A DNA stretch of 64,000 bases from Tridacna crocea (taxonomy: Eukaryota; Mollusca; Bivalvia; Cardiida; Cardiidae), in the NCBI GenBank assembly GCA_943736015.1, contig OX031062.1, positions 54,548,962 to 54,612,961 of the forward strand, written 5' to 3'. The notes beneath the pieces were generated by a model that searched no databases, was not told where the DNA came from, and saw nothing but the letters and a program-made list of their open reading frames with translations. The position numbers and the translations under genes are program-made. The stretch's first letter is position 1; every line of letters begins with the position of its first letter. Of this stretch, positions 320 through 26,853 are shown piece by piece.

Positions 320-3300
320 GTATTGATTTCACAGTTTGTAGCTCCATTGGCCATAGACCAGCAAGCTTATGTCATTCCTCTTTGTCCGTAGTTTGTCCTT
401 CCATGTATATGTGTTTTAAACTTATTTTAAATTTCTTGTTCTCTGACACAACTCAACTGGTCCAATACCTACCAAACTTCACAAAAATGATCCTGTCAGG
501 CTCTCGAAAGAATTGATTCAAATCATTTGCTTCTGATAATCACTGTGGTTGCAATGGCAAAAATATTGAAAAAAGGAAAAAATGTTCTTGCCTGAGACAG
601 TAAGATCAAAGACAACTGAATTTGGCATGTAGCTTCCTCTACTGGACGTCTACCAAAGAGATTCAAACTATAGCTCTTTGGTAAAAATTTCCCCCAAACC
701 CAGGGGTTTCAAATTTTCAATAGGCCTAATGAAGTAAGAACTAGAAATCTTTTTCCTGACCATTAGGCCTAGGGCTACCAAAGCTTCATCTAGTGGAACT
801 CTACCAAGAATGACATTTTTATAGCCCTTGGGTTGAAATTGGCTTTACCTGGAGAGTCACAATCTATACAATGGCCTATAAACTTAAAACTTCAAGACAA
901 TTGTCTGTTTGCTAATCATGAGGCGTAGGACTACTAAATTTTGCATGAAGCTTTTTTCAGTTGACTTCTACTAAGGCTTTCAAATGTGGGTCAAATGATA
1001 GAATTTGTCTTGTAGGAGGGGGATTACATTTGTATTTCAAAAAGATCTTTAGATGTCCTGGTCTCAGATAATTTTCAGATTGCTCCAAAAAATGAAATAA
1101 GAAAAGCATCCCTTCATTTATTTGTGAGGGTTTTGACATCTTTTGTATGATACTCTGATAATATTGTGGACAATGCCAAAATTTGGTCATGTTCAGTCCT
1201 AAAGTAGGTCAATGCAAAAAAAAAAAAAAATTGAAAAACTTTGTGTGTTTTTCAGAGGCCATAAATTGCACTCTTCTTTATCAATTTCAGAATCAAGGTG
1301 TTGCAGACTATTTCATCAATTTAGCAAGAGAATGGAATTCAATAAGATTTAGGAATTTTTTCATCTATCATTATGTCAACAACTTAATACAACTTGATGT
1401 GGAGCCTGAATCATGGTAAACACTGCAATTTGCTTCCTTAACTCTTTACCAAACAACAAAATTACAGACTGGTTCACATTCAAAACATTTGCAGACGACA
1501 AAATAAATGTGACTGAAAAATTGAACTTCTGGTTTTGGAAGGGTAGAAAACATTGTTGAAAAAGGAGAAAATGCTGGTTACCAGCATTTTCTCCTTTTCC
1601 CACAATGTTTTCAAAAGACTTTATCTCAAGGTCATTAAAAGTCAGGATTGCGTGGTAAAGATTTAACTTTAACCACAGTTTGGAGATTCATAGTTTTCAC
1701 TTCCATTCTAGAAACCACCATTTACAAACATTTAGTATCTGCAAGTTTAAAAAAAATATAACTCATGATAGATATTAGTGAAACTGACTTTGACCACCAC
1801 TAACCCCAAATTAAATCCAATGCCATTATAATTCCAAATCCATTATCTTCTTTTCTGAAGCTGTTAGTTCATGAACAAAGGAATGTAGGATGACATCCGC
1901 TAATAAGTCCAATTCAATTGGTTTAAATGATGCCCAGAGGTTCAATCCAAGCTTCTCGTATGGAGACTTTTACCTTAAGTCAAACTGAAAAATTTTAGGT
2001 GGGCCGTATAAAGGCTAACTTTGCCCTTCTGTTTTTTTCTGTGGTGATATCCTGGTATGAAGCAGATCATTTCCCTTTTCTTCTTAACCCTTTTCCACAT
2101 GACAAATTGTTGAGTCTCTGAAAACCACAACAGCCTGCTGATTACAGTTGAGCTCTCTGAAAGTCCATATGTTCTTTCAAAGGGTAGAAACACTGGGAAA
2201 AGGAGAAAATGCTGGTTACCAGCATTTTCTCCTTTTTTCACAATGTTTTAATCCTTTACCACACAATACAGACCTTTGATGCTCCTGGAAAAGAAGCCTT
2301 TTGAAAATATTGTAGGAAAAGAAGAAAATGCTGTTAACCAGCATTTTCTCTTTTTCCAGCAATGTTTTCTACTCTACCAAAGAAAAATCACATCATTTGA
2401 GCCACAATGAAATTGTCACCTGCAAATGCCTTCAATTTGGACAAGGCTAAAATTTTGTCATATGGTAAAGGGTTATATGAGCACAAAAGTGATTAAATGT
2501 GGATTGTTTGTTAAAGGTTTAAGCGCATTATCTGTTCTTGGTTTTGAAAAAAAATGATTGTTATTATATGTGATAGTTGGGCAGGGTTACATGAACAGAT
2601 CACATTGATTCCTATTTTTTTGTTACAGTGAAATACCACCTTCAACCTTGAGCACACTTTACACATGGTTTTTGGAAGAGGATATTGGTAGATTTGGTAT
2701 GACAGAAGTACGTAAAGGAAAGAAAATTACATTTTATAGATTTGAAATGTCTTTTTAGTTTACCCGAGCATGAAATACAGAAGAGAGTTTTAGTGATTGT
2801 GGTGTGTCTTGCATGGGGTGTCCATCTTGACCTTTGATCTTGTATTTGCTTACCCTAGAGGCAACATTTTCTATCCAATGCCCATGAAATGTTATGAGAA
2901 GTTTGGTGTTAATGATACCTTGGCTAAGTTTGTAAGTAAGTCAAAAATAGGTCACAAGTTTAAATCTTATGCAAAAAAAAAAAAAGCACTTGTGCCTACC
3001 CAACAGGCCTTTTTTTTTCAGTCAAATGTTTATGTATTAATAACAAGTCTTACAACTTTAACTCTTTGACAAACGACAATATTTTAGGCTTGTCCAAATC
3101 GAAAACATTTGCAGATGACAAAACAAAGTGACTGAAAATTTGAAATTTGTTTTGTGAGGGGTAGAAAACATTGTGGGAAATGGAGAAAATGCTGGTTACC
3201 AGCATTTTCTCCTTTTCCCACAATGTTTTCTAAAGGCTTCCTCTCAGGGTCATCAAAAGTAGGGATTGTATGGTAATGGGTTAAAAGAACTTTGATTTGG

Positions 3301-5009
3301 TTCAAAAAGCAGGTCATCAGGTCAGTTTGAAAGCTCGCCTTACGACTGAGTAATAAAAGCTTTAATGTCAGTAAGATGCAATGGCTAATAATTCAGGTCA
3401 TGGTACATTTTAGGTTACAGATTAACATGTTCACGGGTAATATTTTCTAACCGCACTCTGTGAAAAGAGGGCATCCCCTTTATCCATGGTACCAAGCAAG
3501 CCATTATATACTTACAGATCCGTAATAGCCATCTTTTTAACAAAATCCTGAGGTAGACTGGTTCTTGGACAGACAGTAAATTGACCAATTGTGAAAAGTT
3601 TTGGCCCAGGGCAGACTGAGCAGGTTGACCTGGATTGATGTGTTTCATAAATGCACGAAGTCTCATTTTGACAGAGTGTTGCTCATTTTATCTTTTGCAG
3701 ATAATAAAATTACTGCTGAAAAATCCATCTGCAGATCCAAAGCAGCTTATGGACAAGGAGAACTTGTGGATGATCAAAGATGAAACAACTCTCAGAACAA
3801 TATGTAAACAAATACTAGAATCTCCAACTGCACAAAAAGCGGTAACTATTTTTTGTGTATGGGTGGAAGGTGGATGGTTATTTGAACTCTTTGAGTGCAA
3901 AATATATGAGCCATGCTCTGGTTAACCCTTTACTCCATAGATACTCATTTCTACGCATTTCTTGTAGGAGCAAAGTGAAATTGCTTGTGACGAGCAATTT
4001 CACCTTTTGCCACAATGTTTTCTACACTATCAAAGGGTGTCATATACACGTAAGAAACGGCTTCATACTTGCTGTTATTTAGGGTCAATTAGAGATACAT
4101 AGAAATGCCTTATGGGGTAAAGGGTTAAAGGGAGCTTCATGCATCTCCATAATCCATGATCCCAAGCAGAACCATCACATAATTACGAATCCATTTAACG
4201 CTTTACCACACAGTCCCGACTTTTCACGATCCCGAGAATAAAGCCTTTTGGAAACATTGTGGGAAAAGGAGAAAATGCTGGTTACCAGCATTTTCTCCTT
4301 TTCCCACAATGTTTTCTACTCTTCCCAAAACAATTTTCAGTTTTTGAGCCACATTTATTTTGTCGCCTGCAAATGTTTTCAATTTGGACATGTCTGCAAT
4401 TTTGTCATGTGGTAAAGAGTTATTCCTTTATTGAACAATCCCTGGTTTTTCGGACCCAGAGGAAGAAGCCTTCTGAAAACATCATAGGAAAAGGAGAAAA
4501 TGCTGGTAACCGGCATTTTTTTTTTCCTTTTCCCATGTTTTCTACTCTTCTAAAGTTAAGTTTCAAGTTGGGCAAGTCTAAAATTTTGTCGTTTTTGTAA
4601 AGAGTTAAACCATTTTCTTGTAACAACTGACTGAATTATGAGGTAGAGAAGTCCTTTGGCGTACAGAAAATTGAGCAATAGAGAGAATACTGGAATTAGC
4701 CTGTCTGTCCATGTGTCCGTCCGTCTGTGTGCCTGTCTGTGTACAAAATTTTGTCACAGCGCTGGCAGGGGTATAAATTCTTCGACAGCTTTAGTTTCAT
4801 TGGGATTCACACCTCCATTGATAGGGATTCACACCTTCGTTGCTTTTTTTCTCCCATTTCAGATCAAGAAATACGAGAAGGGAAAAACTAAAGATGGTAT
4901 TGGCAGTGTGGTGTACCTAGCAGACAAGGCAACAAATAAGAGGGGCCACACTTACAAGATGTCTGTGATATTCAAAGAACTTTTGGATGAGAACAAAGAA
5001 AGTTCCTGA
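88..5009 (+). CDS. GATB: Glutamyl-tRNA(Gln) amidotransferase subunit B, mitochondrial; C-terminal 240 residues in five exons
   Basis: GatB is the tRNA-binding and kinase/transamidase subunit of GatCAB, which converts Glu-tRNA(Gln) to Gln-tRNA(Gln) in mitochondria. Coding exons: 88-319, 1291-1415, 2629-2707, 3701-3841, 4863-5009; they total 724 nt and join in one frame (phases 0, 2, 0, 0). The first exon carries MRDKEVKQDYRFMPEPNL, the diagnostic GatB motif near the end of the catalytic cradle domain; the rest matches the helical and YqeY-like tail domains that contact tRNA (recalled human GATB ends with the same layout and ~240 residues after this motif). The 5' exons with the active site lie left of position 1. 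All five splice junctions inside the window are AG acceptors and GT donors. Introns 2 to 4 contain TTAA MITEs, one starting 22 bp after the 1415 donor. Converges on TMEM168. Recognition is from remembered homologues, not a search. Confidence 0.93.
1291..1415 (+). CDS. GATB: GATB exon b
   Basis: The acceptor is tcaatttcag (1281-1290) and the donor is TG|gtaaac (1416). It encodes NQGVADYFINLAREWNS and continues to ...DVEPES, with two bases of a split codon at the end. The NQG..DYF stretch corresponds to the NEVG..EFF segment of the GatB helical domain. Confidence 0.88.
1438..1666 (-). mobile_element. TTAA hairpin MITE type A, full length (229 bp)
   Basis: Reference description for the family. 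TTAA lies at both ends, with terminal inverted repeats of the form CCCTTTACCA (here CTCTTTACCA / TGGTAAAG). The centre is a palindrome with two 32-bp arms around one unpaired base; the two flanks of the hairpin differ, which gives each copy an orientation. There is no coding capacity. TTAA duplication with TIRs beginning CCC is the signature of piggyBac-type transposition, so this is probably a non-autonomous piggyBac-like element. It sits in the GATB intron, 22 bp after the 1415 donor. Confidence 0.85.
2084..2251 (-). mobile_element. TTAA MITE type A, truncated
   Basis: Left end and hairpin are present (TTAACCCTTTTCCAC..., stem to about 2246); the right flank is missing, replaced by the next copy, which starts at the shared TTAA 2248-2251. 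Confidence 0.75.
2248..2476 (+). mobile_element. TTAA MITE type A, full length
   Basis: Left terminus TCCTTTACCA, right terminus GGTAAAGGG before TTAT. The stem has several uncompensated changes, so it is an older copy. Confidence 0.8.
2629..2707 (+). CDS. GATB: GATB exon c
   Basis: A 79-nt exon after the acceptor tttgttacag, encoding (C)EIPPSTLSTLYTWFLEEDIG and on to ..MTE, resembling the P-x-x-L-x-x-L segment before the YqeY-like tail. The donor is gtacgt at 2708; the overlapping gtaaag at 2712 would add 4 nt and break the frame with exon d, so it is rejected. Confidence 0.83.
3058..3284 (-). mobile_element. TTAA MITE type A, full length
   Basis: TTAA at both ends, CTCTTTGACA / TGGTAATGGG termini, intact hairpin around 3168-3232; intronic in GATB. 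Confidence 0.85.
3701..3841 (+). CDS. GATB: GATB exon d
   Basis: A 141-nt phase-0 exon, acceptor tcttttgcag and donor GCG|gtaact. It encodes IIKLLLKNPSADPKQLMDKE and continues to KQILESPTAQKA, equivalent to the part of the GatB tail that reads EKQLELMQDQ in human, from memory. Confidence 0.9.
3922..4128. mobile_element. TTAA MITE type B, full length (207 bp)
   Basis: TTAA at both ends with longer TIRs (CCCTTTACTCCATAG / ...ATGGGGTAAAGGG). The hairpin is of the same size as type A but carries the B stem (GCAAAAGGTG-type right arm); flanks are unrelated to type A flanks. The left arm is partly eroded in this copy. Confidence 0.8.
4195..4423 (+). mobile_element. TTAA MITE type A, full length, centre base flipped
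   Basis: TTAA left end, TTAT right end, intact 65-bp hairpin. The centre base is T where most forward copies have A (see findings). Confidence 0.85.
4420..4608 (+). mobile_element. TTAA MITE type A, shortened, abutting the previous copy
   Basis: Begins at the same TTA as the end of the preceding copy; the right arm has a T-run in the stem and part of the right flank is missing; ends GTAAAGAGTTAA. Confidence 0.75.
4863..5009 (+). CDS. GATB: GATB last exon with stop codon
   Basis: The acceptor is tctcccatttcag. It encodes IKKYEKGKTKDGIGSVVYLA and ends ..KELLDENKESS followed by TGA at 5007-5009. The G-x-G-x-V-x-x-A pattern followed by a VIFKELL helix is the conserved C-terminus of GatB (human LIGLVRKA..IKEILEKKL, from memory). 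No clear AATAAA lies within the first 300 bp downstream. Confidence 0.9.
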   Translation: MKKYEKGKTKDGIGSVVYLADKATNKRGHTYKMSVIFKELLDENKESS

Positions 5010-5057
5010 TGTTGACAATTACTGAGAATGTCTTTTGGAAATATTGCTTGCTTGGCC

Positions 5058-5150
5058 CTTTCCTACACAATCTTGAGTTTTAATGGCCAAGAGGAGGAAG
5101 GCTTTTGAAAACATTGTGGGAGAAGAAGAAAATACTGGTAACATAGTTTG
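5058..5150 (+). mobile_element. TTAA MITE type A, left half only
   Basis: CCCTTTCCTACACAATC start, AAACATTGTGGGAGAAG left arm, then the similarity stops inside the right arm. It lies about 50 bp downstream of the GATB stop, so it probably falls in its 3' UTR. Confidence 0.6.
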
Positions 5151-5303
5151 TTCTTTGCAAAAGAGTTGAATATGAGTCATGTAGAGTGTTTGTATTGCGG
5201 AAAGAAGTGAATGTAATTGTACTGACAGAGCATTTTAGCAAGCTGGGAAGTCTTCAGTGAAAATATTGTGTATTGATGTTCACAGATAAAATTATTTAAT
5301 GTC

Positions 5304-5534
5304 TTGACCCTTCACCAAACAATCCCTGGTTTTCACGACTCAGAAGATAAAGTCCTCTGAAAACATTGTGGGAAAAGGAGAAAAATGCTGGTAACTAGCT
5401 TTTTTTCCTTTTCCCATTGTGTTTTCTTATGTTCCAAAGTCAATTTTCAGTTTTCAAGTCACATTTACTTTATGGTCTGTGAATGTTTTCGATTTGGACA
5501 TGTCTAAAATTTTGTCGTTTGGTAAAAGAGTTAA
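5304..5534 (+). mobile_element. TTAA MITE type A, full length, degraded
   Basis: Left end TTGACCCTTCACCA, right end GTAAAAGAGTTAA; imperfect hairpin. Confidence 0.75.
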
Positions 5535-6053
5535 TCTCATATGTTTTTGTTTCACTCGAAAAATACAAATTTTCATTCTGTGCATAGATAAATGACAGAG
5601 GTATCTAGTGTGTTCTACACGATATGTTAAAATGTGAAAATTATAAAGATGCAAGAAGACATGTTACTCATTTTCTGAACTCTCACTATGTTAAAGTACG
5701 GACAGTTTGAACAAATTAACTAGTCTCAAAGGTGTTCCAGCAACAAAGGTTCGACTGTATAGATGAAATGGTTAGCACCATCAATAACCTTGTTTATGAC
5801 AATTAAAGATATATCTTTGCAGCCAGAGGGGAAAAAACTGCTGTAAAGATTTGATGGACTGTAGTGTGGTTCAAAATCTAGTCACATGTGTAGAAACATA
5901 TAATTGATTTAGATGTGTAAGGGATAAATACATATATCAAAAATCTTCAAAAGCTGGAAATGCCACAAGACTGATTTCTTTGATGTCCTTTACAAAAGGA
6001 AATGTATTTTCTACAGGCTGTAATTTATGCAACCATCAGGAGCAATGTTTAGC

Positions 6054-6282
6054 TTAACCCTTTGCCAAACAATACCTGCTTTTTATGAACCTGGGACAAA
6101 AGCCTTTTAAAAACATTGTGGGAAAAGGAGAAAATGCTGGTAACCAGCATTTTCTCCTTTTCCAGCAATGTTTTCTACCCTGCTGGAAACAAATTTCAAT
6201 TTTTGAATTAAGATTATTTTGTCATCTGCAAGTGCTTTCAATTTGAACCAATCTAAAATTTTGTTGTTTTGTAAAGGGTTAA
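6054..6282 (+). mobile_element. TTAA MITE type A, full length (229 bp)
   Basis: TTAACCCTTTGCCA left end, GTAAAGGGTTAA right end, near-perfect hairpin. Confidence 0.85.
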
Positions 6283-6376
6283 AGATACATGTACAAGAAT
6301 GATTATAGTTAGATAAAATAATGATGAAGTGGGTGAAAAATGGCTGAAAATGATATAAATTTATTTAATGTATGGC

Positions 6377-6570
6377 TTGCAACATGCACAAAGGGGCATT
6401 CTAACAATTGCATTAAGTGTTGTCTTGGATCAGCCTTTGCAGCTAATCCAAGATGGTACTTTACGACTTTATTAGATTTTGTGCTACAGTAGACTTGTGC
6501 AAAACAGAAAATACATAAAAATGGAAAGTGTCGTTTCAGATTAGCCCATGCTAACTGCACAGCCTCATCA
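6377..6570. repeat. Degraded copy of the CGTCTCGGAT-type MITE
   Basis: The terminus resembles the element at 39971 (CAAAGGGGCATTC, then TTAAGTGTTGTCTTGGAT) and an inverted partner (AAGTGTCGTTTCAGATTAGC) lies near 6520-6545. An old, partial copy. Confidence 0.5.
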
Positions 6571-6884
6571 GAGACAAGATTTGATGGAAATATTTGAATT
6601 CCTTTTTTCACGTGTTGCAGGCTGTATAAAATACAACTTACAAGTTATTTATGTTTTTTCTCCCATCAGTTTGTATGACTCATGGCTTCCTGTTAGATAC
6701 TCTAATGCAAAGTGTAACCTTACTCCAATGGTATTTGTAATGATTGAATTAGAAAATGGTGTAATGGAATTAAATTGCCATGTCACCATGCAACCAAAAT
6801 AAAATATGAAAACACCATGTGATTTCTCTCCTTACTGCTGGAAGAAGTATGCCAGACATTTTCATATTGGTTTCTTGTAGCTAC

Positions 6885-7113
6885 TTAAGCCTTTACCAAA
6901 TGACAAGATTTTGGACTGGCCCAAATTGAAAGCATTTGCAAACAAATAAATAAATTTGAATAAAAGATTGAAATTTGATTTGGAAAGATTAGAAAACATT
7001 GTGGGAAAAGGAGAAAATGCTGGTTACCAGCATTTCCTCCTTTTCCCACAATGTTTTCAAAAGGCTTCGTTCTCAAGGATGTTAAAAGTCAAGATTGTGT
7101 GGCAAAGAATTAA
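6885..7113 (-). mobile_element. TTAA MITE type A, full length (229 bp)
   Basis: TTAA at both ends; the hairpin is intact apart from a changed base in the right arm (CATTTCCTCC). Confidence 0.85.
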
Positions 7114-7670
7114 CCAGCAAATCTAGCATGAATTTTAGGTTTCTTCTATTTGTCTTGATCACATCTAAAATGGGCTTGGTTTCATGATTAAACTTGAGTC
7201 CCTTATTTTACTCAAAATCACTAATAGACTTATTTTTCGACTTTAAGTCGAGTTTGTTACTTGAAACCAATTTCTCTAGCATGAACAGACCTAGGGAATA
7301 TTATCAAATCCTGAGCTGACACAATTTTTCAGTCTCAGCTCAGAAAAGTAATGGACTTGAGTCTATTGATTGAGCTATGATACTCGTACTACACTTTGTA
7401 AGATACACATGTCTCAAAAAAAGAATTCCAGTCAGAAACTGAGACCGTTGGTAGATTTGTGTAAAATAAAAGACAAGATTTTTCATGACACTGGGCCAAG
7501 TTACCTGTCATTTTCATACAAACTTATATATAAACATATTAACCCTCTTACCCCCCCCCCCCCACACAAAAAAAAAAAAAAAAAAAAATTAAGACTCTTC
7601 TAAACTGAAAGAGTATGAAGATAACAATTTTACATTTGATAAAAGGACATACATTTCTACAGTGGAATAG

Positions 7671-7735
7671 AAAACACTGTGGGAAAAGGAGAAATTGCTT
7701 GACACAAGCATTTTCTCCTTTTCCCACAGTGTTTT
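7671..7735. repeat. Orphan MITE hairpin with compensated arms
   Basis: Only the 65-bp palindrome of the TTAA MITE family is present; the usual type A flanks and TTAA ends are not recognisable. The outer stem carries a matched pair of changes (ACTGTG left, CACAGT right). Confidence 0.7.
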
Positions 7736-8244
7736 CTAGACTTATAATGCAGATACGTAAGAACACTGGTTTGTTTGGGATACGGTCAACTATTGCTTTT
7801 TTCATTGAAGTTGGTCTCGAATTTAGTCAAGTTGACTTGTGGTGGGAACTGCATTGGCTAAGTTGAGCCATAACCCTACAATGGTTAACATGGTCGATAA
7901 GTTAACCAAAAGTCAGTTAAAGAACTGAGGAAAATTAATATGAAAATTTTATTCATTTGTTTGTATGGTGTTTAACTCTGTTTTCAAGATTATTTCAGTT
8001 ATATTTTAGGCGCAAGTGCACTTCACTTTACTGGAGTTTCCTATAACTTAGCTTACGGTACCACAATGTTTTCCCAAAATCAGTTACTACTGGCTGCTTT
8101 CCTACCTAACCCCCATTGAAACAAAAGATCAGCATTGAAAGAGGAATGAATCTGATGCTTAATACTATCATTAATCCTCAGAAAGAAATTTGGGAAATGT
8201 TTGCTTGAAGACAAATGGGGCTCAATTGATAGAATTTGTCTTTG

Positions 8245-8374
8245 ATAGGGTAGAAAACATTGTTGGAAAAGGAGAAAATGCTGGTTACCAGCATTTTCTC
8301 CTTTTCCCATAATGTTTTCAAAAGGCTTCTTCTTCAGGGTCGTTAAAACTTGTGATTGTGAGGTAAAAGGTTAA
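8245..8374 (-). mobile_element. TTAA MITE type A, 5'-truncated
   Basis: Hairpin and right flank are present, ending GGTAAAAGGTTAA; the left flank before about 8245 no longer matches the family. Confidence 0.7.
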
Positions 8375-8565
8375 CTCTTGGGACTGGATCAAATACAAAG
8401 CATCTGCAGACAACATATTAGATCCTGTTAATAAGATGATTTCTGACTTTGATAGGGTAGAAAATATTGTGGGAAAAGGAAAAAAAGCTGCTTTTCCCAC
8501 CAATTTTTTTCATAGGCTTCTTTCTCATGGTCATTACAAGTTGGGATTGTGTAGTAAAGAGTTAA
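8371..8565 (-). mobile_element. TTAA MITE type A, hairpin collapsed
   Basis: Shares its first TTAA with the previous copy. Most of the palindrome is deleted (GGGAAAAGGAAAAAAAGC then CTTTTCCCACC), leaving a short stem. Confidence 0.7.
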
Positions 8566-8742
8566 TTCACTTTTTATGTTCACTTTCTCTCTTTATGTAA
8601 AAATATCCGATTTAATTATGCAAACTTAAATATTTGTGCAAAGTATATTCTATGTACAGTTCTGCCCATTAGTATAAATTAGATTTGATCAAGCAGTTTG
8701 AAGCTAGAAGTTTCAAAAACACCCTATAAACCACATCAGAGA

Positions 8743-8953
8743 TTAACCCTTTCCCAAACAATTCCTGGTTTTTATGGGTCTGGAATCTTTTGAAAACATT
8801 GTGGGAAAAGGTAACCAGCATTTTCTCCTTTTTCCACAATGTTTTCTACTCTATTATAATCAGAAATCATCTGTTCAACAAGAGTTGAATTGTCGTCTGC
8901 AAATGCTTTCAATTTGGTCTAGTCCAAAAGTTTGTCGTTTGGTAAAGGGTTAA
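8743..8953 (+). mobile_element. TTAA MITE type A with one arm deleted (211 bp)
   Basis: Both TTAA ends and flanks are intact, but about 18 bp of the left arm next to the centre are lost. It abuts the TMEM168 3' end. Confidence 0.8.
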
Positions 8954-8973
8954 TCATCTGTGATGGTAAAATT

Positions 8974-8983
8974 TTTATTTATT
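8974..8983 (-). terminator. Polyadenylation signal of TMEM168 (AATAAATAAA)
   Basis: Two overlapping AATAAA hexamers read on the minus strand 17-26 bp after the TMEM168 stop. Cleavage 10-30 nt downstream would fall at about 8945-8964, on the edge of the MITE at 8743-8953, giving a very short 3' UTR. Confidence 0.6.
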
Positions 8984-8999
8984 ATGAATTCAATTTTGA

Positions 9000-9544
9000 T
9001 CATGATCTAACAAGCTTAAAACCGTGACCAGTGGAAACTACTTTTGGGGGTAGCCATTGCATACGTTTTCTTCGAATAAACTGTCTGATCCCATCACAGC
9101 AACACAAACTACCTGTTCCAAAAAAGTTCACACCCTTGATGAGAGGTCTGGTAAAACTTGGAAAATTACTCTCCCAATGTTCTTCAATATCTTCCTTAGT
9201 AGGTAAATGGAATGTGAAGTTTGTCCAACATCTTGAAACTTTATAAACAGCTCTCACTATTCTATCTTTATGAGACCAAGGTGGATCCACCTCTCCATCA
9301 ATATTGTATTGAACCCAGTCATCTGTAAATGAACCTACATTCAACTTTTCACCAAATTCAGGATCCGGAGGCTTGGAAAACTTTAAAGTTTGAATGGCCA
9401 CATACTCATGGGAAACTTTTGACACTTCTTGGGCCCAGCGCCAAGAGTGTAGTGTGTCTAACACCAGTATAAGCCTTGAACCTGATTCTGAATTCTTCTG
9501 TGACCACCACTCAAGGATTGTGTCAAGTCTCAAATTTCCATTAC
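9000..9544 (-). CDS. TMEM168: TMEM168 exon 4 with stop codon
   Basis: The acceptor is gcttaattgcag. It encodes GNGNLRLDTILEWWSQKN to GHGFKLVRS, with TGA at 9002-9000. It contains the LRLDT.IEWW-type motif and the DDWVQYN / SRCWTNFTFHLPT blocks typical of the family's C-terminal domain. Confidence 0.95.
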
Positions 9545-12500
9545 CTGCAATTAAGCACAAAATTGTATAAATTTTCAGGATACAATGAGTTGTTTACTCT
9601 TAACAAAGATAACACATTTCTGACAGGTCCAAATCAAAAGCAGTTGCAGATGATAGACTGCCGACGAAGGTAGTCCATAAGTATGGAAAAAAAAATGTCC
9701 TTAATAGGGTAGAAAAGATTGTGGGAACAGGAGAAAATGCTGGTTATCAGCATTTTCTTCTTTTCTCTTAACCCTTTCCCAAACAATCCCTGGTTTTTAC
9801 AACCCAGAGATAGAAGCCTTTTGAAAACATTGTGGGAAAAGGAGAAAATTCTGGTAACCAGCATTTTCTCCTTTTCCCACAGTGTTTTCTACTCTACTCA
9901 AAACAATTTTCAATTTTAGAGTTACCTTTATTTTGTTATCTGCAAGTGCTTTTAATTTGGACAAGTCTAAAATTTTGTCGTTTGGTTAAGGGTTAAGGTC
10001 TTTCAAAAGCACTCTTGGTCAGTGTTGTTAAAAGTTGTTATTGTGAAGTGAAGGGTTTATTTCATTTATGAACTAAGTCAGTTAGTCTTACTATGGGCTA
10101 AACTCCTTACCAAGTGACAAAATTTTGGATTAGTCCATATCAAAAGCAATTGAAGACGACTAAATAAATGTGAATCAAAAATTGAAATTTGACTTTGAAA
10201 GGGTAGAAAACATAGTGGGAAAAGGAGAAAATGCTGGTTACCAGCATTTTCTCCTTTTCCCACCATGTTTTCAAAGGCTCTATTTCTCAGGGTCGTTAAA
10301 AGACGGGATTGTGTGGCAAAGAGTTAAATAATATACAAATGTAACTTTGCAAGTTTGTCAGCCATGTAACATTTTGGAGCAAGTCAATAAGAGACTACCT
10401 ACCTGTATGTACTAAAGGCTCACATGGCAATTCAACAATAGCTTAATTCTTGAACTCTGACCATCAAAAATTGCCAGGGGAGACACTCAATTCTAATTCT
10501 CCTATCATTCTTGTCTGGTCAAATTCTCTGGTATTTCTCTGTAGTTCACACCAATCATGTTTTCATTGGGTTGACTACCCAACAAATGACCAGGCATGAC
10601 CAACACGGCACAATCACAAAAGCTCAGTCTGAGCACTTCGAGTTTGGCTAAGAGTAATATGTAAAATGCTTTTACTGTACACTTACCAACAAGAGCCCAG
10701 TCGCCCGAGTCATGCACATCCCCACTATAGTATAGAATGTAAGTGTCATATCTTGGACCATGATTCGTCTTTCTATCAAAAAACTGCTTGACTTTGGATT
10801 CTAGATAATCTTCCATAAGACCACTGGATAAGAAGTCACAACCAAAGTTTTCAATCATGTTGAAGTTGAAAAACTGCTGCACCTAAAATTGGGCGCACAA
10901 GAAACAAAAAAAAAAATCAACATCTTTTTTTCTTAAAAGAAGGCATGTTTTGCTTTCTCACCTATTACCACACAATTCGTACTTTTGACAACCCTGAGAA
11001 AGAAGCCTTTAAAAACCATTGTGGGGAAAAGGAGAGCATGTCGGACTCATGACCTGGTGGTTGTGAGTTCGATACCCGGTTGAGGCAAACTTTCTTTCCG
11101 GCGTATTTTCGCCTCTCACCTCTGCTGAAGCAAGTGAGAAAAGTAGTTGTGGCTTTGGAAAGAAAGTTGTGTTAGTGCTGGTGTGAGAAAGCGAGAAAAC
11201 AAGGAAACAAATGTGCGTCACCTACCACCATGATATGACCCTAGCTGTTAAAGTGGCACTAGACCACAATACAACCAACCAACCAATCTATCCTTCACAA
11301 AATAAATTTTGATTTTTCAGTCACTTTCAATTTGTCGTCTGCAAATGCTTTTGATTTGAACAAGCCTAAAATATTGTCATTTGTTAATAGCAGAAGGGAA
11401 TTTCTATTTCATCATATAAAAAACTTCCATTGCAGCATAATTATTTGAATAATGTTCCACAAAATAAATAGTAATCATATGACATTCCTAAAGGCTTTTG
11501 CAAATGAAATACAAGCACAAGAATTGACAACAAGACTGCATGTGGGTGACAAAGCTAGACCACAGTTACTTTTTAGTGAAAAATTCTGTTAAAAAAGGGG
11601 CATAACCGTGGGTTCCCCCCTTCAATAGTTAACAACTTGTCCAAGTTTTTGCACCATGAGAAAGCAGACGCAGTTAGCAGTGCTAGTATGATAATTCCTA
11701 GACTATTTCCCCCAAAACGGTCAAGGTGATAAGCAGCTATAAACCTCATTACTGAAATACTATCAAAGATTTATTTTCACTTTTTAATCTTATTAAACTC
11801 TTTCTACTTATATCTTTATTACAAAGTATTCACCTACTCTAAGATGGTTTAGGTCACTCATTTAACCCTTTACCACATGACAAAATTTTATTTTTGTCCA
11901 AAATGAAAGTATTTGCAGACAACAATTTCAATGTTGCTCAAATGGTGCGAGTTTTCTTTCTGGTTACTGGCATTTTCTCCTTTTCCAACAATGTTTTCTA
12001 GAGGCTACTTTTCCAGGGTTATTAAAAGTCTTCATAGTGAGGTAAATGGCTAAATAACATGTCTCTCTACTGTATTTAATCAACAACTTACTGTTTCATG
12101 TATCAGTAAGCTTCTTTTTAATTCAATTAAATGTACTGTTAGTTACATAAAGTAAAGATAAAAAGGTTAGTTACTGTCAACATTTAAATTTTTATAAAAG
12201 TGCAAATAATCATCTTAACAATGTATGCAAAGAAGACAGGGAAAAAAATTAAACCTTGTTGAGGGAAGATGTTGCACGGGAATTAATATCTTGTACTGCA
12301 GCAGCTGAGAGCAGTTTAGTAACAGAATTACTCCCTTGTCTGAAATAGAGAGCAACAGCAAACAATTAGACAAAATGTTTCTTTCATTTTGTTCTATATA
12401 AAGCTAAAACAATATCTTACAGCAGCACAACATACTAGTATGACTTGTAATAGAGTACATAAAGCAAGTAATGAACTTAAGCTTAACCCTTTACCACACA

Positions 12501-15425
12501 ATCCCGACTTCACGACCCTGAGAAAGAAGCCTTTTCAAAATATTGTGGGAATAGGAGAAAATGCTGGTAAACAGCATTTTCTCCTTTTCCCACAATGTTT
12601 TCTTCCCTTCCAAAAACAAATTTCAACTTTTCAGTCACTTTTATTTTGGTGTTGGCAAATGCTTTGAATTGGGTCCAGTCTAAATTTTTTTCGTTTGGTA
12701 GAGTTAAAGGCACCCTAGCAGCCAAATGTAAACTTGTAACTTGTAAACAATCTAGGGGTCAAATTGCAGACAAATTTCAATAATACCATTAAAAGTATAT
12801 ACAGATGTAGTTATAGGTCTGATTATGTGCCATAGTACTGTCAATAAAGTTCCAGCTACTGGCAGAAAAAATATTTCTAAAACTGGAAAAAATTTACGGT
12901 ACCAACATTGTTCTAGTTTCACAATACACTTTTTTACCCCAGACTGCTACTTTGACAAATTGTACTGAAAGATATAGTCAAACTCATATTATGTATGTAT
13001 GACACCTTTTGATAGCACAGAAAACATTGTGACAAAAGGTGAAATTGCTTATCACGAGCAATTTCACCTTTTGCCACAATGTTTTCCAAGGGCTTCTACA
13101 AGCAGTGCATAGAAATGAGTCAAGGGTTAAATAAGATATTACCATTAAACATAATTTTATGCAAGTCTGTATCAAAAATGCATATGCAATTTCTTTGAAT
13201 TCTTAAAATCCAACCATTACAATAAAATCAAATCAATTTCAGAAATTTTGAAAAGTTTCTTTTTCTGCTGCTTTGCAAACATATTGGCAAGTAGAGATGA
13301 AACATTTTAGCACTTTTGGTGCAGTGACCAACCTAGGGAACATTTCTGCAAATTATTTGAAAATTCATCTATTAACCCATTACCACTCAATCCCTACTTT
13401 TGACGCCCCCAGAGAAAAAAGCCTTTTGAAAACACTGTGGGAAAAGGGGAAAATGCTGGTAACTAGCATTTTCTCCTTTTCCCACAGGGTTTTCTCCCCT
13501 TCCCAGGACAAATTTCTATTTTTCAGTCACCTTTATTTTGTCGTCTGCAAATGCTTTCAATTTGGACTAAGCCAAAATTTTCTCTTGTGGTAATGAGTTA
13601 ATATGGAAGAAGTCAATGAAAGATTTCCTTTTTTTGCTATGGTGGCAATCTTGCTCAGTGGAGTGTAACTTTTTTTACAGCTCCCGTGCAGGGTCATCAA
13701 AAGAACAATCCTGTGCCATGATTTCAAAATCCTTCCATTGCTCCACAAGAAGAAGTGATTAAAAGGTTCTTTTTTTTTTTAATTTTCCGTGTTCAGCTCT
13801 GGTACCTTGCAGTCAAGGACCTAAGACTAAGATGACCAGAAAATTACTCAAACCTACTCACTTTGTGCTCCACTGAGCTGAAAGCATATTATATAGAGTG
13901 CCAGACAGATGGATTGATTTTGATTTCAAAATTGAAAATATTAAATATTGTCAACTAAACCCTATTTTATGGGTACTATTAGAATCGTCTCATTGAGACG
14001 ATTCTAATGAGTGCCCATAACATAGGGTTGGGAAGAGAAATAATGGATTTAGAATATCATCACTCCCTCTTATCTGGAGCTCTGGCATATACATGTACTA
14101 TTTTATACTTGCCTTTGACCTGTATGAGGAGCAATAATTGCATATCCAATACATGTACCGCCAAGGTTATCTCCAAGTTCCCAAAACAAACTCAGTGTCA
14201 TTGCTTTAATTGGTATTATAACTTGAACTATTCCTTGACTGTATGGAGTCTGTGTTTGCCAACCTACTCCCATCAGCAGAACTGTTGTCAACAATGTGAG
14301 GAAAATTAGGCGCCGAGATATCAAACTAAAATGTCTGATGCCCTTTGATGCCATTATTCTGTTTAAGCTCTTGTGTTCACATGTTAAACTCAGGTAAGTT
14401 GTATTACACTCTGTGATTTTGCTCATTAACTTCCAGGTTGAGATGAGATATATGACTTGAAAACACAGCCAAAACACAGTTAACACAATATAAATTGGTA
14501 TTACAACAAACCACTCTTTGTGCTTAGTCAATAGTTGTCCAATTACAGCCACAAACACAAGATTGACCATAAAAAAGAAAAGAACTGAGGTTTTCCTTAA
14601 AAAATTGCTTTTATCAAAAAGTGCTTGCCAACGTTCCAGAGTTGAAAGACTTGAGAAATACAGATCTATGATGGGGTCGAATGCATGTCTCAAAATGAAA
14701 CAAACAAGTCCATACAAATTAACTTTGAGGGTTAGAGCTGGCAGAGAAAACAATGAAAATATCAAAATGAAGGAGATCAATGTTAAGATTCCTAAAAAGG
14801 ATTTCATTCTGATCGCTGTTAAGTTTAAAATAAAGGCTATAACAGACAGGAGAATTACAACGAAATCAACACCTATCACCAAAGAGCCAACTATTAAGCC
14901 TATACTTTCTAAGCTCTCTATTGGTGAAAACAAACTTGCTTCATATTGTTTCAGGTGTAAAAGTCTTTCACTGATGCTCCAAAAACACCCACAGATGGCA
15001 CTGGAAACAAATAGGATATCCATTGCTTCTTGCATTGTTTCAAACTGAAAGTCTCGTTGGTCTATAAAGATAATCACTCCCAAGATGCAGCCAAGCCATA
15101 TATGCAGTAATGCTCTTCCCAGTGCTTCCATGCTAAAGTAGTATTGCATCGCAAGTGATATACCGAACACAAACAATCCCAGAAGAGAGATAAGGAGCAC
15201 ATAAGTATTTTGAGTATTCATCCATTCTGTGTATAGTCCAAGACCAAGAGCTACCATAAGCACTAAATTTGACAGATGTCCTAAATAATGCATTGAGAGC
15301 TGCACACGTATATCCTTGAAGTTCATGATGATCCGGTACAGTGTTTTGTATCCCGCAGTGGCTAATCGTTTGGTGTAAAATTTCAAGGCTGATACTGGCT
15401 TCAACAGTTTTCGATACAGCATCAT
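9000..15425 (-). CDS. TMEM168: TMEM168-like multi-pass transmembrane protein, complete coding region, 712 aa
   Basis: Coding exons on the minus strand: 15425-14113, 12339-12255, 10882-10687, 9544-9000 (2,139 nt, 712 residues plus stop; human TMEM168 is 697). The N-terminal ~430 residues are strongly hydrophobic with about nine to ten membrane segments. The C-terminal ~280 residues are soluble. Motifs matching remembered TMEM168 include DPIIDLYFSSLSTLERW, SLNRIMASKGIRHF, GGTCIGYAI, GPRYDTYILYYSG and a terminal TGHGFKLVRS (human TGQGFKLVKS). The start ATG at 15425 is the first in a frame that has a TAG seven codons upstream; a second ATG follows directly. The family is a poorly characterised membrane protein, reported at the nuclear membrane in vertebrates; no enzymatic role is inferred. 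Introns 1-3 carry MITEs and one SINE. The first intron lacks a simple GT-AG solution (see findings). Confidence 0.95.
9589..9771 (-). mobile_element. TTAA MITE type A, truncated, in TMEM168 intron 3
   Basis: Left flank and hairpin are recognisable (GTGGGAACAGGAG left arm); the right flank is replaced by the next copy at the TTAA 9768-9771. Confidence 0.7.
9768..9996 (+). mobile_element. TTAA MITE type A, full length (229 bp)
   Basis: TTAACCCTTTCCCA left end and GGTTAAGGGTTAA right end; TMEM168 intron 3. Confidence 0.85.
10098..10327 (-). mobile_element. TTAA MITE type A, full length (230 bp)
   Basis: Left end mutated to CTAA, right end GGCAAAGAGTTAA; hairpin with one mismatch on each arm (ATAGTG / CACCAT). 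Confidence 0.82.
10687..10882 (-). CDS. TMEM168: TMEM168 exon 3
   Basis: A 196-nt exon: acceptor ccaattttag, donor GTTG|gtaagt. It encodes VQQFFNFNMIENFGCDFLSS through GPRYDTYILYYSGDVHDSGDWALV and the first base of a glycine codon. This is the start of the soluble C-terminal domain. Confidence 0.93.
10965..11390 (+). mobile_element. TTAA MITE type A split by a SINE
   Basis: Left part about 10965-11034 (TTACCACACAATTCG, then GGGGAAAAGGAG of the left arm); the SINE occupies 11035-11286; the right flank resumes at 11287 (CTATCCTTCACAAAATAAA) and fades near 11390. The whole right arm and centre of the hairpin are missing. Confidence 0.72.
11035..11286 (+). mobile_element. tRNA-derived SINE, 5'-truncated (same family as 29333)
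   Basis: Matches the SINE at 29333-29597 from its TCAGACTCATGACC region on, including the B-box-like GAGTTCGATACC and the ACAACCAACCAACCA tail. The A box end is lost. It lies in TMEM168 intron 2, on the strand opposite to the gene. Confidence 0.78.
11862..12053 (-). mobile_element. TTAA MITE type A, left arm deleted
   Basis: TTAACCCTTTACCA left end, right arm and right flank present, CTAA at the end; the left arm is mostly replaced by unrelated sequence. Confidence 0.7.
12255..12339 (-). CDS. TMEM168: TMEM168 exon 2
   Basis: An 85-nt exon on the minus strand: acceptor ctctatttcag, donor AACAAG|gtttaa. It encodes QGSNSVTKLLSAAAVQDINS and then RATSSLNK, which lines up with the LLPPEHVQELNLRSTGMLN segment of vertebrate TMEM168 (memory). 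Confidence 0.87.
12483..12707 (+). mobile_element. TTAA MITE type A, full length
   Basis: TTAACCCTTTACCA left end, TTTGGTAGAGTTAA right end; TMEM168 intron 1, about 140 bp upstream (on the gene strand) of exon 2. Confidence 0.83.
12995..13130. mobile_element. TTAA MITE type B, partial
   Basis: B-type hairpin (GACAAAAGGTGAAATTGC left arm, GCAATTTCACCTTTTGCC right arm) and right flank ending AAGGGTTAA. The left TTAA end is not recognised. Confidence 0.72.
13373..13601 (+). mobile_element. TTAA MITE type A, full length (229 bp)
   Basis: TTAACCCATTACCA left end, GGTAATGAGTTAA right end; hairpin with partly matched outer changes (ACTGTG / CACAGG). Confidence 0.84.
13893..14098. mobile_element. 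Second palindromic MITE (GAGACGATTCTAAT core)
   Basis: The core palindrome at 13978-14010 (ATTAGAATCGTCTCA then TGAGACGATTCTAAT) lies inside outer inverted repeats (about GCCAGACAGATGGA on the left, TATCTGGAGCTCTGGC on the right). It is related to the copy at 26216-26405. It runs up to the donor of TMEM168 exon 1. Confidence 0.6.
14113..15425 (-). CDS. TMEM168: TMEM168 exon 1 (coding start and all membrane segments)
   Basis: Encodes residues 1-437 and two bases of the next codon. It reads from MMLYRKLLKPVSALKFYTKR through a run of membrane helices to GYAIIAPHTGQR. I end it at 14113, before a GC donor (AAAG|gcaagt), because only this matches the frame of exon 2 when its first AG is used. An alternative GT donor ends the exon at 14120 and needs an acceptor 5 nt further inside exon 2. 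A stop at 14103-14105 follows if unspliced. Confidence 0.9.
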
Positions 15426-15553
15426 AAATGTAGGAATCCTCTACATCGATTTACTTGTCTTCTACTGTCATAACCTGTGGTAGTAAATAAAGAAAAGGGT
15501 TTGAAATGTACAAAAAATAAAAACATCCGAGTCAAGGTCTTTGAAAAGGGGGC

Positions 15554-15777
15554 TTAACTCATTACCAAACAACAAAATTTCAGGCTTGTCTAATTCGAAA
15601 GCATTTGTAGACAACAAAAGTGACTGAAAATTTGAAATTTGTTTTGTGAAGGGTAGAAAACATTGTGGGAAATGGAGAAAATGCTGGTTACCAGCATTTT
15701 CTCCTTTTCCCATTATGTTTTCTAAAGGCTTCTTTCTCAGGGTCATCAAAAGTAGGGATTGTGTGGTAATGGGTTAA
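15554..15777 (-). mobile_element. TTAA MITE type A, full length
   Basis: TTAACTCATTACCA left end, GGTAATGGGTTAA right end, intact hairpin; about 130 bp upstream of the TMEM168 start codon. Confidence 0.85.
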
Positions 15778-17949
15778 AGCATCTGCAAAAACTATAGAGC
15801 TATGTCAGCCTGCCCAGTTTGTGCAGACAGACATAAGTCAAAACCTTTGCTAATTTTGAGTTTTCTGCATATCTAAGGACCATACAACCACAGGATAATC
15901 CGATTCAGTCGGCTGCAGGACAAAATGGATTTTATCGATCCATGGTCATGTGATAACTGGCCTAGTATAATGCTAAGCGGAGAGGCGTCAAGCTCTTTTT
16001 GCCTGGGCACAACAAGTTTAACATACACTTGTTTTAACAATCTACCTTTGCAGTAGATTTCCTCTTGTTATATCCCTGTCACACTAAATTTGTTCTCACT
16101 CCATTCCAAAATTTTATGTCAAACAAGACTTAAACTAATTGTTCTGATGGAGTGGATGTATAAGCAACCTTTAATGATGTGTTTGCGAATCTAATGGACA
16201 GGTTGGGATGGGTGCCCCAGAACTTCGAGCCTGCTCAAATTTTTTTGCCATCCATCCAGATCTGTGTAATTAGGGGAAGTTACAATGTACTCAAAACAAG
16301 ATGGACGTTCTACAAATGGAACTGCTGTACTTCAATCTTAATAGACACAGTGCAGTCTGGCATCAATTAGCAGTGTGTTTTGCATTCTATCAAACAATAT
16401 TACTAGACCTGTCCCAACCACAGTCCATGTTACAATTTTGTTGACCAGAGGAAGACTTAATAAGAAGATTTTGTTGACCAGAGGAAGACTTTTTCAGAAC
16501 ATTGTTGGAAAATGATATGCCCAAGTTCTTTCTCTTGTTTTAAATTTTTGGCCAAATTGATTACCACAGCACCATAGAGGACTATCCTAAGACTTTAACG
16601 TTTCCAAAAGCATTTACAGAATGTTTACTGGTGAACAATTAGAGAGACACAGATAAGATGTTTAGTGTAGGTCTCTGACAATTACTAGCTCAAAATTCTA
16701 CATTTTGAATTCTATCTAGATCTACCACATTTCTTTTCCTTGAAAATAAATAAGACATAATTTGTTAAATATGTATTAAAAAACGGGGGGTCGAGTACTC
16801 CAGGGGACTCATTTTACTTTCGCCTCCAAGTTTCTGAATAAACAAATGGAGTTGGTTCAGCTGGTTACTGCAAATCAATGGCAATGTAAAAAGTAAAATG
16901 TATCAGTTTTTCTGCTTCCGATTTCGGCTTCAAAAAAAGTTAACCTTCGGTAAATTTTCCGCTGAGAAATTAGTACAGGAGGCCAAACCGGCAAAAGTGA
17001 ATGACTGGATTGTTCATGTTTACTACGGAAGTGTCAGATAGTATTAATGTCCGATACCATTCGGTAAACTTCGTAGATACGGATTTCACCGAGTTATGAC
17101 GAGTGTCCACCATCCGGTAAACTTCTACACTCATCACAACCCGGACGATTCCGTACCTAAATCTGCCGAATGTCAACCTTGAAAGATCCTGTATCGAATC
17201 CAAAACGACGAGTTTGATGAGTAGAGAGTCCCCTAGATAACTTTTCAAACCTTTCTTACAATTTGTTCCGTGGAAAATGCATCACCTGACTGTGACAAAA
17301 TGTAATTACAAAACCTAACTAACGAATATAGGTTCTACTTTAATAGGCCTAGGTGTTAGCTGAAAAGACAGACAGGTAGACAGACAGACGCGAGTCGAAA
17401 ATTGGATCTGATCCTTACAGAATAAAGAAATGGGTTCTTTTGGAAGATGGAGTGGCCTGAGGTTGATTTAAGATGCAGCTATCATCGAAATGTTGCAAAA
17501 CGTGGAAGATCTCCCGTCTGTCTGTCTGTCTGTCTGACCAACTATATACTAGATTAGCTTCATTCCTTTGTAAAGCGGGCTTGGGCTCGAGTGGTAAAGC
17601 ATGGCCTGCCGCTCGGTGGTATTTCACTCACAAGTACGAGTTAACCAGTCTGACTGTTCGCAGAGAGAGATCGATCGAGTCTGTAATAGGAAGCCCAGAC
17701 CCCAGCAGGTCTTCAACCTATACTCTCGTAAATTTCCCGGAATTCTTGGCTCTTGAATTTCTGAGAAAACATCCAATGTAAACCGTCTTTGGATTTCTAG
17801 GTAGATCTATTATGATACAAGGTTGGATGTGTCCTCTGTGTATATTTGGTTAGCCTACATTAAAATGCCGACGCTATAGTACTAACCTATAGCCGATAAG
17901 CGTTATAACATACGACAATTTAGCAAATGTAACTGGATGTGTTAAATGT

Positions 17950-18585
17950 AATGTGTGGTCATGTTAAATTGTGTTTGTGTGTCCGTCATGTATTAGTTAG
18001 ATTTCACCTTCATATGTCATTTTCCTTTTCATCCCATTTCACCTTCCAGGGCCTCATTCCAATCATTCTAATGCTATATAAATAAGGGCCTCATTTTTTT
18101 CTTTCATGCACGAGTTCCCCGTGCCTGTTTTGTATCTGTCCCGGCTCTGCTGACGCACTTCTGCGCAGTCGTTATTTAGCTCCTACTTTATTTAGGGAGC
18201 CGGATCGTCTACATTTCAGGTATGTGTAACTTCCATTTCACGTTTCTATTCATAACTCATTTCACTTTTCTTTCTTTCACTTTTCTTTCATTCGTTCAGC
18301 ATTTGATTTTATTGTACGTCCGTCTGTTGGCCAGGCTATCTGTTTTAGCCTGCCCTAATCATTGTCAATTATGTTCGAGTTCTGCATTATTACTAAGTCT
18401 GTCTGTTAGTCCTTCTGTCTATCAGACGTTACTGTTTTGTATATGTCACTATTTGTTTGAGTGTTTAATTTATGTAATAAATGAATTCATTTTTGAACCT
18501 TCCAGTCGTCAGGTTATTTAGATCCTGCGCCTATACTATAGCATTAAAATACATGTACTTTATATTGAGAGACGGGTCGTCTACA
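17950..18585 (+). mobile_element. Possible solo LTR: TATA box plus AATAAA within 400 bp
   Basis: TATATAAATAAG at 18075-18086 is followed by sequence without a coding frame and an AATAAA at 18476-18481, the U3-R-U5 spacing of an LTR. Candidate ends are TGTGGTCATG near 17955 and TCTACA near 18585, but I could not find a matching target duplication, primer-binding site or second LTR. It could equally be the promoter and first exon of an unrecognised transcript. Confidence 0.3.
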
Positions 18586-18862
18586 TGTCAGTTTTGCCCA
18601 GGACGAGAACCCAGAGTATTACTAGACTTGTGACACAAATTTTGATATTTGTTTAGTTCTTGAGTTAAAGGTAACCCTGAATATTGTTTGCGTACTTTGC
18701 GTACAGTGTTTTTTAGAGATCAATATAGATGACAAATATCATGACAAAATGACGCCCGGATATGTAACTCTTGGCCAATGGGACATAAAAATGGTAGATA
18801 GTGTTGGTGAAATAAAGATTTCAGCACGATTTGGCCTATCGTCGAGGATGGGAAAGGGGGAC

Positions 18863-19158
18863 TTAACCCTTTACCCCATAAGGCATTTCTATGGTATCTG
18901 TAACTGACCCTTAATAACAGCAAAATATAGCAAGGATAAAGCCGTTTCTTAAGTGTATGACACTTTTTGATAGTGTAGAAAACATTGTGGCAAAAGGTGA
19001 AATTGCTCGTCACGAGCAATTTCACCTTTTGCCACAATGTTTTCCAAAGGTTTCTACTGAAATAATGTTGAAAGCAGCGTAAAACACCATTCAAACAAAT
19101 TTCCAAAGGCTCCTACAAGCAATGCATAGAAATGAGTATCTATGGAGAAAATGGGTTA
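18863..19158. mobile_element. TTAA MITE type B, full length with a SINE-tail insertion
   Basis: TTAACCCTTTACCCCATAAG left end and ATGGAGAAAATGGGTTAA right end. The stem 18979-19043 is a perfect 32-bp B-type palindrome centred on one C. The right flank is interrupted by 42 bp of SINE tail (19058-19099). Confidence 0.85.
19058..19099 (+). mobile_element. 5'-truncated SINE tail with 17-bp target duplication
   Basis: TGAAATAATGTTGAAAGCAG followed by CGTAAAACACCATTC is the 3' end of the bivalve SINE also seen at 25923. It is bounded by TTTCCAAAGGTTTCTAC (19041-19057) and TTTCCAAAGGCTCCTAC (19100-19116), a duplication with two mismatches. Confidence 0.78.
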
Positions 19159-19409: not shown

Positions 19410-19519
19410 TTTTCGTAAAAACCAGACAACACCACTTTGGACATCGTAAAATTCATCTGCTTTATTCTTTTTGCATTGGGTCCTTTGTGGCTTAACTTGG
19501 TAAAATATACGCTTTACGC

Positions 19520-23671: not shown

Positions 23672-23830
23672 TAGTGTAGATCTATACAGATCAAACTGCA
23701 TACCATCTGTGTCAGATCCACGATCTATATTTTATACTTCTTCTCATTGGCTATTCTGAAAAAAACATTCATGGAAAAGCATCAATACATAAATAGGCCG
23801 TTGAATTCGCTGAAAGTATACATTTCATCT

Positions 23831-24059: not shown

Positions 24060-24064
24060 GCATT

Positions 24065-24975: not shown

Positions 24976-25037
24976 TACCCAAAACCATCTTTGAAATAGC
25001 AACGTCAAGGTTTACACTATTGGCTTGAAAGTTTTGT

Positions 25038-26852: not shown

Positions 26853-26853
26853 A

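Follow-up and report, generated by a model that had tools for sequence, protein, structure and literature searches.

Mirrored stem differences and a recurrent centre flip in the palindrome of an abundant piggyBac-type MITE of Tridacna crocea

Hairpins of two types, A and B, recur in a 64-kb stretch of the 1.05-Gb assembly of the bivalve Tridacna crocea (C7:54548962-54612961; GCA_943736015.1, contig OX031062.1), which was analysed as a whole and is called the window below. We found that both types are the palindromic interior of one kind of element, a 229-bp TTAA-flanked miniature inverted-repeat transposable element (MITE) of the piggyBac type, that its larger subfamilies are separated mainly by mirrored changes in the two arms, and that the centre base of the type A palindrome has flipped to its complement recurrently. 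This flip is a stronger finding than the rule, drawn from the stems in an earlier note on this DNA, that base pairs are merely exchanged for their complements: the stem observation stands, and the swap rule is most likely a coincidence. The best-fitting explanation, to which we give about an even chance, is that A, B and an intermediate type C are subfamilies of one MITE built around the 67-bp palindrome, whose arms would be templated from each other in lineages that keep spreading, the A/B swap pattern being coincidental.

The A and B stems and the element that contains them

We compared the A and B stems in a 67-base frame and found that both are odd palindromes of 67 bp, perfect except for the centre base. 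The A sequence used for this is present intact at 23886-23952 and, on the opposite strand, at 25145-25211, and the B sequence at 18978-19044. The four mirrored differences described earlier, all of them complement swaps, were confirmed at frame positions 14, 21, 26 and 31 with partners at 54, 47, 42 and 37; the positions first given for them (12, 19, 24 and 29) are the same sites counted in a frame two bases shorter. Beyond the four pairs, the centre base at position 34 also differs, and the type A copy that had served as the example (4250-4316) shows the four swaps together with one extra, one-sided difference at position 2. The probability that eight changes among 66 positions form four mirror pairs by chance is 7e-6, before pairing is required.

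The layout of the MITE is identical in the A1, A2 and B consensus sequences: TTAA and left flank of 55 bp, palindrome of 67 bp, right flank and TTAA of 107 bp. In the C consensus the right side is 1 base shorter, and the A4 consensus extends 3 bases further. Among 154 assessable copies, TTAA lay at most 3 bases from its expected site on the left in 103, on the right in 89 and on both sides in 71, compared with 0-2 copies having both in each of six offset controls. The ends are CCCTTTACC-like. The majority left end, CCCTTTACCACACAAT, fits a short terminal inverted repeat starting CC[C/T]T, and the majority right end, CTCTTTACCAAACGAC, deviates from this at its second base, where the majority letter reaches only 0.52. 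The element thus has the TTAA at both ends and the short terminal inverted repeats of a piggyBac/TTAA-type MITE, and it is short, of high copy number and, judged from the list of open reading frames (ORFs) only, non-coding. Of the 14 window ORFs on the list, three were scanned against Pfam with no match, and tRNA and Rfam scans of the window likewise gave none.

The palindrome is abundant throughout the material searched. There were 44 matches in the window (E up to 0.05) and 174 in 20 arbitrary 10-kb stretches (200 kb), 17 of which held at least one. A 31-base core pattern, which leaves the centre and three of the four swap pairs open, had 245,726 exact sites genome-wide, and the same pattern read backwards had none. 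A hand count among 100 listed core sites gave 80 A, 10 B, 3 C and 7 with other one-armed changes. One exact 31-base pattern searched in viral and prokaryote contig collections found no copy.

The same genome contains 118 matches to PF13843, the piggyBac-type transposase, a good number of them with long stop-free frames; it is rich in TTAA MITEs alongside these matches. Both ends were recognised at two of six inspected PF13843 loci (CCCATTTATGCCT and CCCTTTATATAC), and neither equals the MITE ends. Palindromes near the piggyBac gene of locus L034 were weak and decayed, and were treated as background since such copies are common everywhere.

Mirrored changes between subfamilies

For the pair counts, 162 of 261 matches were used (gapless, with at least 52 of 67 positions matching an A or B template). 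Other subsets comprised 158 copies after duplicate removal, 157 with full flanks, 150 after near-duplicate removal and 140 in the flank tree. Locus L001, which lies inside the window, was excluded; loci L029-L038 are absent from the pair counts and enter the family X, right-flank and palindrome scans.

By their state at the four pairs, 91 of the 162 copies are type A, 12 type B and 4 type C (26 and 31 swapped), while the remaining 55 show a mismatch or some other state at one or more of these pairs. Five pairs (8, 14, 21, 26 and 31) have a common second paired state, in 13-20 copies each: the four swaps and one transition, at pair 8, which is T:A in 102 copies and C:G in 20. The next commonest alternative paired state was A:T at pair 1, in 5 copies. 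The picture of four swaps was therefore accurate for A against B and incomplete for the element, as the copy at 22688-22754 has only the swaps at 26 and 31, and the paired transition at pair 8 also separates subfamilies.

Clustering by flanks only yielded a B cluster of 15, every member of which is B-type or decayed B. At a tighter cut, three clusters with different flanks (42, 15 and 7 copies) have one identical A palindrome, and the A1, A2 and A4 palindromes are identical at 66 of 66 positions despite differing flanks. The B cluster (12 copies) differs from A at nine consensus positions, eight of which are the four mirrored swap pairs, while the ninth is the one-sided position 55; the C cluster (5 copies) differs from A at 8, 26 and 31. 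These results show that mirrored changes dominate between the larger subfamilies, though one-sided changes exist.

Recurrent flip of the type A centre base

Inversion of a palindrome in place changes the centre base alone, and changes it to the complement, so a flip of the centre from A to T is its expected mark. In oriented type A copies the centre was A in 88, T in 11, G in 3 and C in none (two of the 11 T copies duplicate others by their flanks), and orientation by the right flank alone gave A 92, T 9, G 4 and C 0. Genome-wide, with type A sites anchored by five left-flank bases and the bases A, T and C counted, the centre was A at 30,400 sites, T at 3,395 and C at 472. The background at A/T sites of the arms was 2.01% complement and 1.06% other transversion, that is, about 1.9 complement changes per other transversion, and centre T stood at about 3.8 times the value predicted from C. 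The flipped centre is present in as many as one in ten of the flank-anchored type A copies, about a quarter of this share being expected from ordinary substitution. On the tree of flanks, the 14 centre-T copies require 14 changes, which indicates that the flip is recurrent and not inherited by one subfamily.

Another conceivable source is crossing-over between oppositely oriented copies, since passage through the common palindrome would reshuffle arms and flanks and give both centre flips and subfamily differences. Copies are dense and lie in both orientations, and by hand comparison one of the 14 centre-T matches listed in C1:0-5.2 Mb has the P (left) flank on both sides, so this artefact accounts for 1 of the 14. 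Against such an origin, a signature of A in the left arm and B in the right at all four pairs was found in 0 of 162 copies, and we regard it as improbable. The palindrome at G000:C1:1811218-1811294 seems to carry the P flank on each side and may have arisen by exchange between inverted copies.

The complement-swap pattern

The earlier note had put the chance of four swaps out of four at about 1 in 81, which is correct for equal rates. We compared 158 copies with their nearest subfamily and counted 729 private changes, 52% of which were transitions, 23% complement changes and 25% other transversions. Under this measured spectrum (complement share 0.232), four of four gives P 0.003, and at least four swaps among the five diagnostic pairs gives P 0.012 for a pattern picked post hoc. 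A mechanism that specifically flips base pairs in hairpin stems, G:C to C:G and A:T to T:A, would account for these proportions, and also for the fact that two of the four A/B swaps are G:C, although such swaps are the least frequent kind of private change where the base is G or C (40 of 404). Three results argue against it. First, diagnostic pair 8 carries a transition, and the flank tree places six changes there, compared with 1, 1, 2 and 2 at the swap pairs. Second, swaps are the rarest paired class at pair 31. Genome-wide, 551 A cores have both sides of this pair changed, and among 50 of them that were listed (all on contig C1, two lying 120 bp apart) 30 are paired: 21 A:T, 7 T:A and only 2 C:G, the swap.

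Third, the pattern is absent from family X, a second abundant palindromic repeat of about 65 bp with several mirrored subfamilies, which had 81 matches in the window and the loci searched. Arm consensus sequences were made from 42 of the 81 matches (at least 75% of a template; groups of 2-18). X1 and X3 differ by ten mirrored pair differences, comprising 1 swap, 4 transitions and 5 other transversions, plus one pair that is not fully paired. X1 and X2 show four paired differences (1 swap) and three not fully paired, and X2 and X3 eight paired differences (0 swaps) and two not fully paired. Mirroring is thus present in family X and the swap pattern is not. These results do not support a special meaning of complement swaps, and a base-pair-flipping mechanism is very improbable; no process with this action on stems is known to us. 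X1 copies were often found in pairs, about 120 bp apart.

Candidate arm-to-arm templating

The palindrome may fold, and one arm may become the template for the other, through a template switch in replication or arm-to-arm conversion. A mutation in one arm would then be erased or copied to the other, leaving mirrored differences; inversion of the whole palindrome by the same kind of event would flip the centre base; and the arms would stay identical in lineages that keep spreading. In favour of this are the five diagnostic pairs, the B cluster defined by flanks, the centre flips of type A, the conservation of the palindrome above its flanks, the published footprints of template switching described below, and a modest paired excess at pair 31 (30 against 22.4 among the 50 sites listed of 551, P 0.013, with independence of the arms as the sole comparison). 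We infer that selection alone does not account for the pattern and that templating, mainly in source lineages, is responsible; both may act. A wider form of this proposal is that near-perfect palindromes, in the hundreds of thousands, would fold in the germ line and be copied anew there, with inversion in place and with rewriting of each arm from the other, so that the MITE interior would be kept perfect without selection on each copy; we rate this somewhat short of an even chance.

The suggestion in the earlier note that selection or copying acts on the hairpin as a paired structure is supported between subfamilies, where mirrored differences, conservation of the palindrome and inversion of the type A centre were found, but the private changes of individual copies are mostly one-armed. 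By pair, the private changes of the 158 copies were one-armed in 635 cases, both-changed and paired in 20, and both-changed and unpaired in 27. Both-changed pairs numbered 47 at the mirror position and 24-42 at ten shifted positions. The count of paired and unpaired changes that had been proposed as a check thus came out without significant mirroring in private changes, while the larger subfamilies proved mostly mirrored. Dead copies are not visibly kept paired, and pairing is kept in spreading lineages. A rough hand estimate suggests more doubles at pair 31 than independent arms would give, both paired and unpaired, and we place no weight on it.

Several observations weigh against arm templating. 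With the right arms shuffled, paired private doubles reached 20 against 14.4 expected (P 0.11, not significant), and unpaired ones were also in excess (27 against 18.6, P 0.04). One-sided changes occur at the subfamily level: 7 of 12 B copies share 55 C>T, all 4 copies in a small cluster share 61 T>A, and at a looser cut clusters of 3-7 copies show further unpaired consensus positions. In family X, mismatched consensus pairs occur in X1 and X2, and one X3 arm has an extra base. The centre flip does not prove copying between arms, and the tree on which its 14 changes were counted is based on about 170 sites per copy. Type B shows no clear flip (G 9, A 2, T 1 and C 1 in 13 copies), a sample too small to exclude one. 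Finally, in the part of PMC8794818 available to us, loop inversion alone is enriched, and compensatory change together with loop inversion is not.

Flank divergence and conservation of the palindrome

The flanks outside the stem had been called unrelated. We found instead that the flanks of A1, A2 and B agree in length (55 and 107 bp), differ little at their ends and resemble each other in the bases next to the stem. In gapped alignment, A1 and B are identical at 35 of 52 aligned positions on the left and 57 of 93 on the right. Without TTAA, the left flanks share 31 identical positions, above the shuffled value of 25.5 (s.d. 2.1). For the right flanks against B without TTAA, A1 is not above the shuffled level (53 against 53.6), and A2 (59 against 54.0) and C (59 against 53.5) lie slightly above. 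Ungapped, the middle of the right flank is identical at 29 of 80 positions for A1 and 30 of 80 for A2 at offset 0, compared with 15-29 and 14-27 at 20 other offsets, and the middle of the left flank at 12 or 11 of 29, with one other offset better (13 or 12). We reject unrelated flanks because of the lengths and ends, though the gapped A1-B right flank is at the shuffled level. Mostly because of the equal lengths, ends and stem-adjacent bases, we read the flanks as probably of common origin, having changed nearly to saturation without altering in length, with 57 of 66 positions kept in the palindrome.

A chance convergence of two unrelated hairpins would agree with the shuffled-level right flanks of A1 and B and with middle flanks near chance. 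The palindromes match B at 57 of 66 positions (A) or 59 of 66 (C), the ends and lengths are the same, and the intermediate type C exists, which makes convergence next to impossible.

Palindrome identity exceeded flank identity in 119 of 125 copies, with means of 0.941 and 0.867; these are the copies, among 159 found by their right flank, that retain at least 90% of the palindrome, the other 34 being excluded. Part of this difference may reflect flank subfamilies that the clustering did not separate.

The main alternative to arm templating is selection on a symmetric site bound by protein. If the palindrome were a hairpin that the element requires, or a site of dyad symmetry bound, for instance, by paired C-terminal domains of the mobilising transposase, compensatory mutation could keep the half-sites of active copies equal, and we consider selection alone a real possibility, leaning towards the unlikely side. 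It is consistent with the conservation of the palindrome above the flanks, with the 55/67/107 spacing being equal in the A1, A2 and B consensus sequences though flank sequence diverged, and with mirroring that is clear between subfamilies only. In the portion of PMC11707139 that was accessible, the transposases of piggyBac and piggyBat use a pair of cysteine-rich domains to bind palindromic DNA; those palindromes, like the one here, lie within piggyBac-type ends, but are 14-19 bp long and near the tips, whereas ours is 67 bp and interior. In addition, selection does not predict recurrent A-to-T flips of an unpaired centre base, and the G.T mismatch common to 7 of 12 B copies did not stop their spread.

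Related systems

Homogenisation of arms and inversion of a spacer or loop are published footprints of template switching, in RNA stems (PMC8794818) and yeast genes (PMC8604942), as far as the available parts of both papers go. Those systems resemble ours in having mirrored stem changes and an inverted spacer between perfect arms. They concern rRNA, microRNA or yeast coding loci; the palindrome here belongs to a transposon, occurs at hundreds of thousands of sites and has a spacer of a single base. In our data, mirrored changes in both arms were found between subfamilies, at five diagnostic pairs, and were not significant in sampled single copies; spacer inversion between perfect arms was found as the type A centre flips, and in B as 1 complement centre in 13 copies. 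In the sections at hand, PMC8604942 also cites earlier work by its authors, in which non-coding DNA containing short inverted repeats was better conserved than the sequence around it, as is the palindrome here in 119 of 125 copies.

The nearest described element that we found is CMITE of Acropora corals, as presented in the part of PMC2872659 open to us, the likeness being drawn from its description. It shares with our element a TTAA target site, CCCTTT-type ends, several families with different ends and an internal region more conserved than the ends; here the A1, A2 and A4 palindromes agree at 66 of 66 positions while the flanks differ. CMITE measures about 100 bp, of which 75 bases form the interior, and A. 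millepora is estimated to carry 1,600 copies; the element here measures 229 bp. That portion of the paper gives its interior an unknown origin and a proposed role in transposition, neither calling it palindromic nor reporting mirrored changes. A term search in the main text of a bivalve transposon survey (PMC10294476) found MITE and PiggyBac and not 'palindrom', and the terms 'mollus' and 'bivalv' are absent from a hairpin survey across genomes (PMC13155455). We found no palindromic piggyBac-type MITE of this kind described in the listed titles and abstract openings, which leave subscription journals mostly uncovered.

The persistence of perfect stems is an old question, usually argued from RNA genes. 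A palindrome in hundreds of thousands of copies, with orientation fixed by flanks, could allow the rates of inversion and arm copying to be measured directly, and bears on why some piggyBac-type MITEs conserve their interior. If the wider form of the templating proposal is true, the element would be a natural, genome-scale recorder of template switching.

Copies and other features in the window

The copies of the MITE and of family X in the window are collected in Table 1.

Table 1. Palindromes and MITE copies located in the window
Feature	Position	Strand	Remarks
Type A MITE	4195..4423	+	TTAA and left flank (55), palindrome 4250-4316 (67), right flank (107) ending TTAT; coordinates from sequence
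Type A palindrome	4250..4316	+	One-sided change at position 2; centre T (flipped)
Type B MITE	18863..19159	-	TTAA at both ends; extra bases in left (P) flank of this copy; coordinates from sequence
Type B palindrome	18978..19044	-	Pairs 14 C:G, 21 T:A, 26 T:A, 31 C:G
Type B palindrome	13020..13086	-	One-sided change at 55 (G13.T55); decay close to centre
Type B MITE, left arm partly deleted	3922..4128	+	Palindrome remnant 3967-4022
Type C (intermediate) palindrome	22688..22754	+	Swaps only at 26 and 31 of the four; pair 8 mismatched
Decayed palindrome, C-like flanks	7670..7736	-	Paired C:G at 8, T:A at 31; 26 mismatched
Intact type A palindrome, flipped centre (T)	23886..23952	+
Intact type A palindrome, common centre	25145..25211	-
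All 44 listed palindrome matches (span)	1546..42590	both	Many partial or decayed
Family X, X1 pair	40000-40064 and 40124-40186
Family X, X2	41209-41273
Family X, X3	24891-24959

Further repeats were noticed beside these copies. Tandem copies of two other palindromes lie at 26767-27252 of the window, and one of the two also occurs in loci L015, L021 and L024. Tandem arrays with units of 145 bp and 156 bp occupy 35454-36997 and 38093-39171, and from about 45600 to 63600 there are large repeated blocks, some about 5.5 kb from start to start, with multiple copies of the same sub-repeats. On the minus strand, 14103-15425 holds a 440-aa open frame rich in hydrophobic stretches, with no Pfam match at E 0.001. 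In locus L022, the same series of palindromes occurs twice, at 558-2976 and 7893-9945, about 7.4 kb apart, which is a local duplication.

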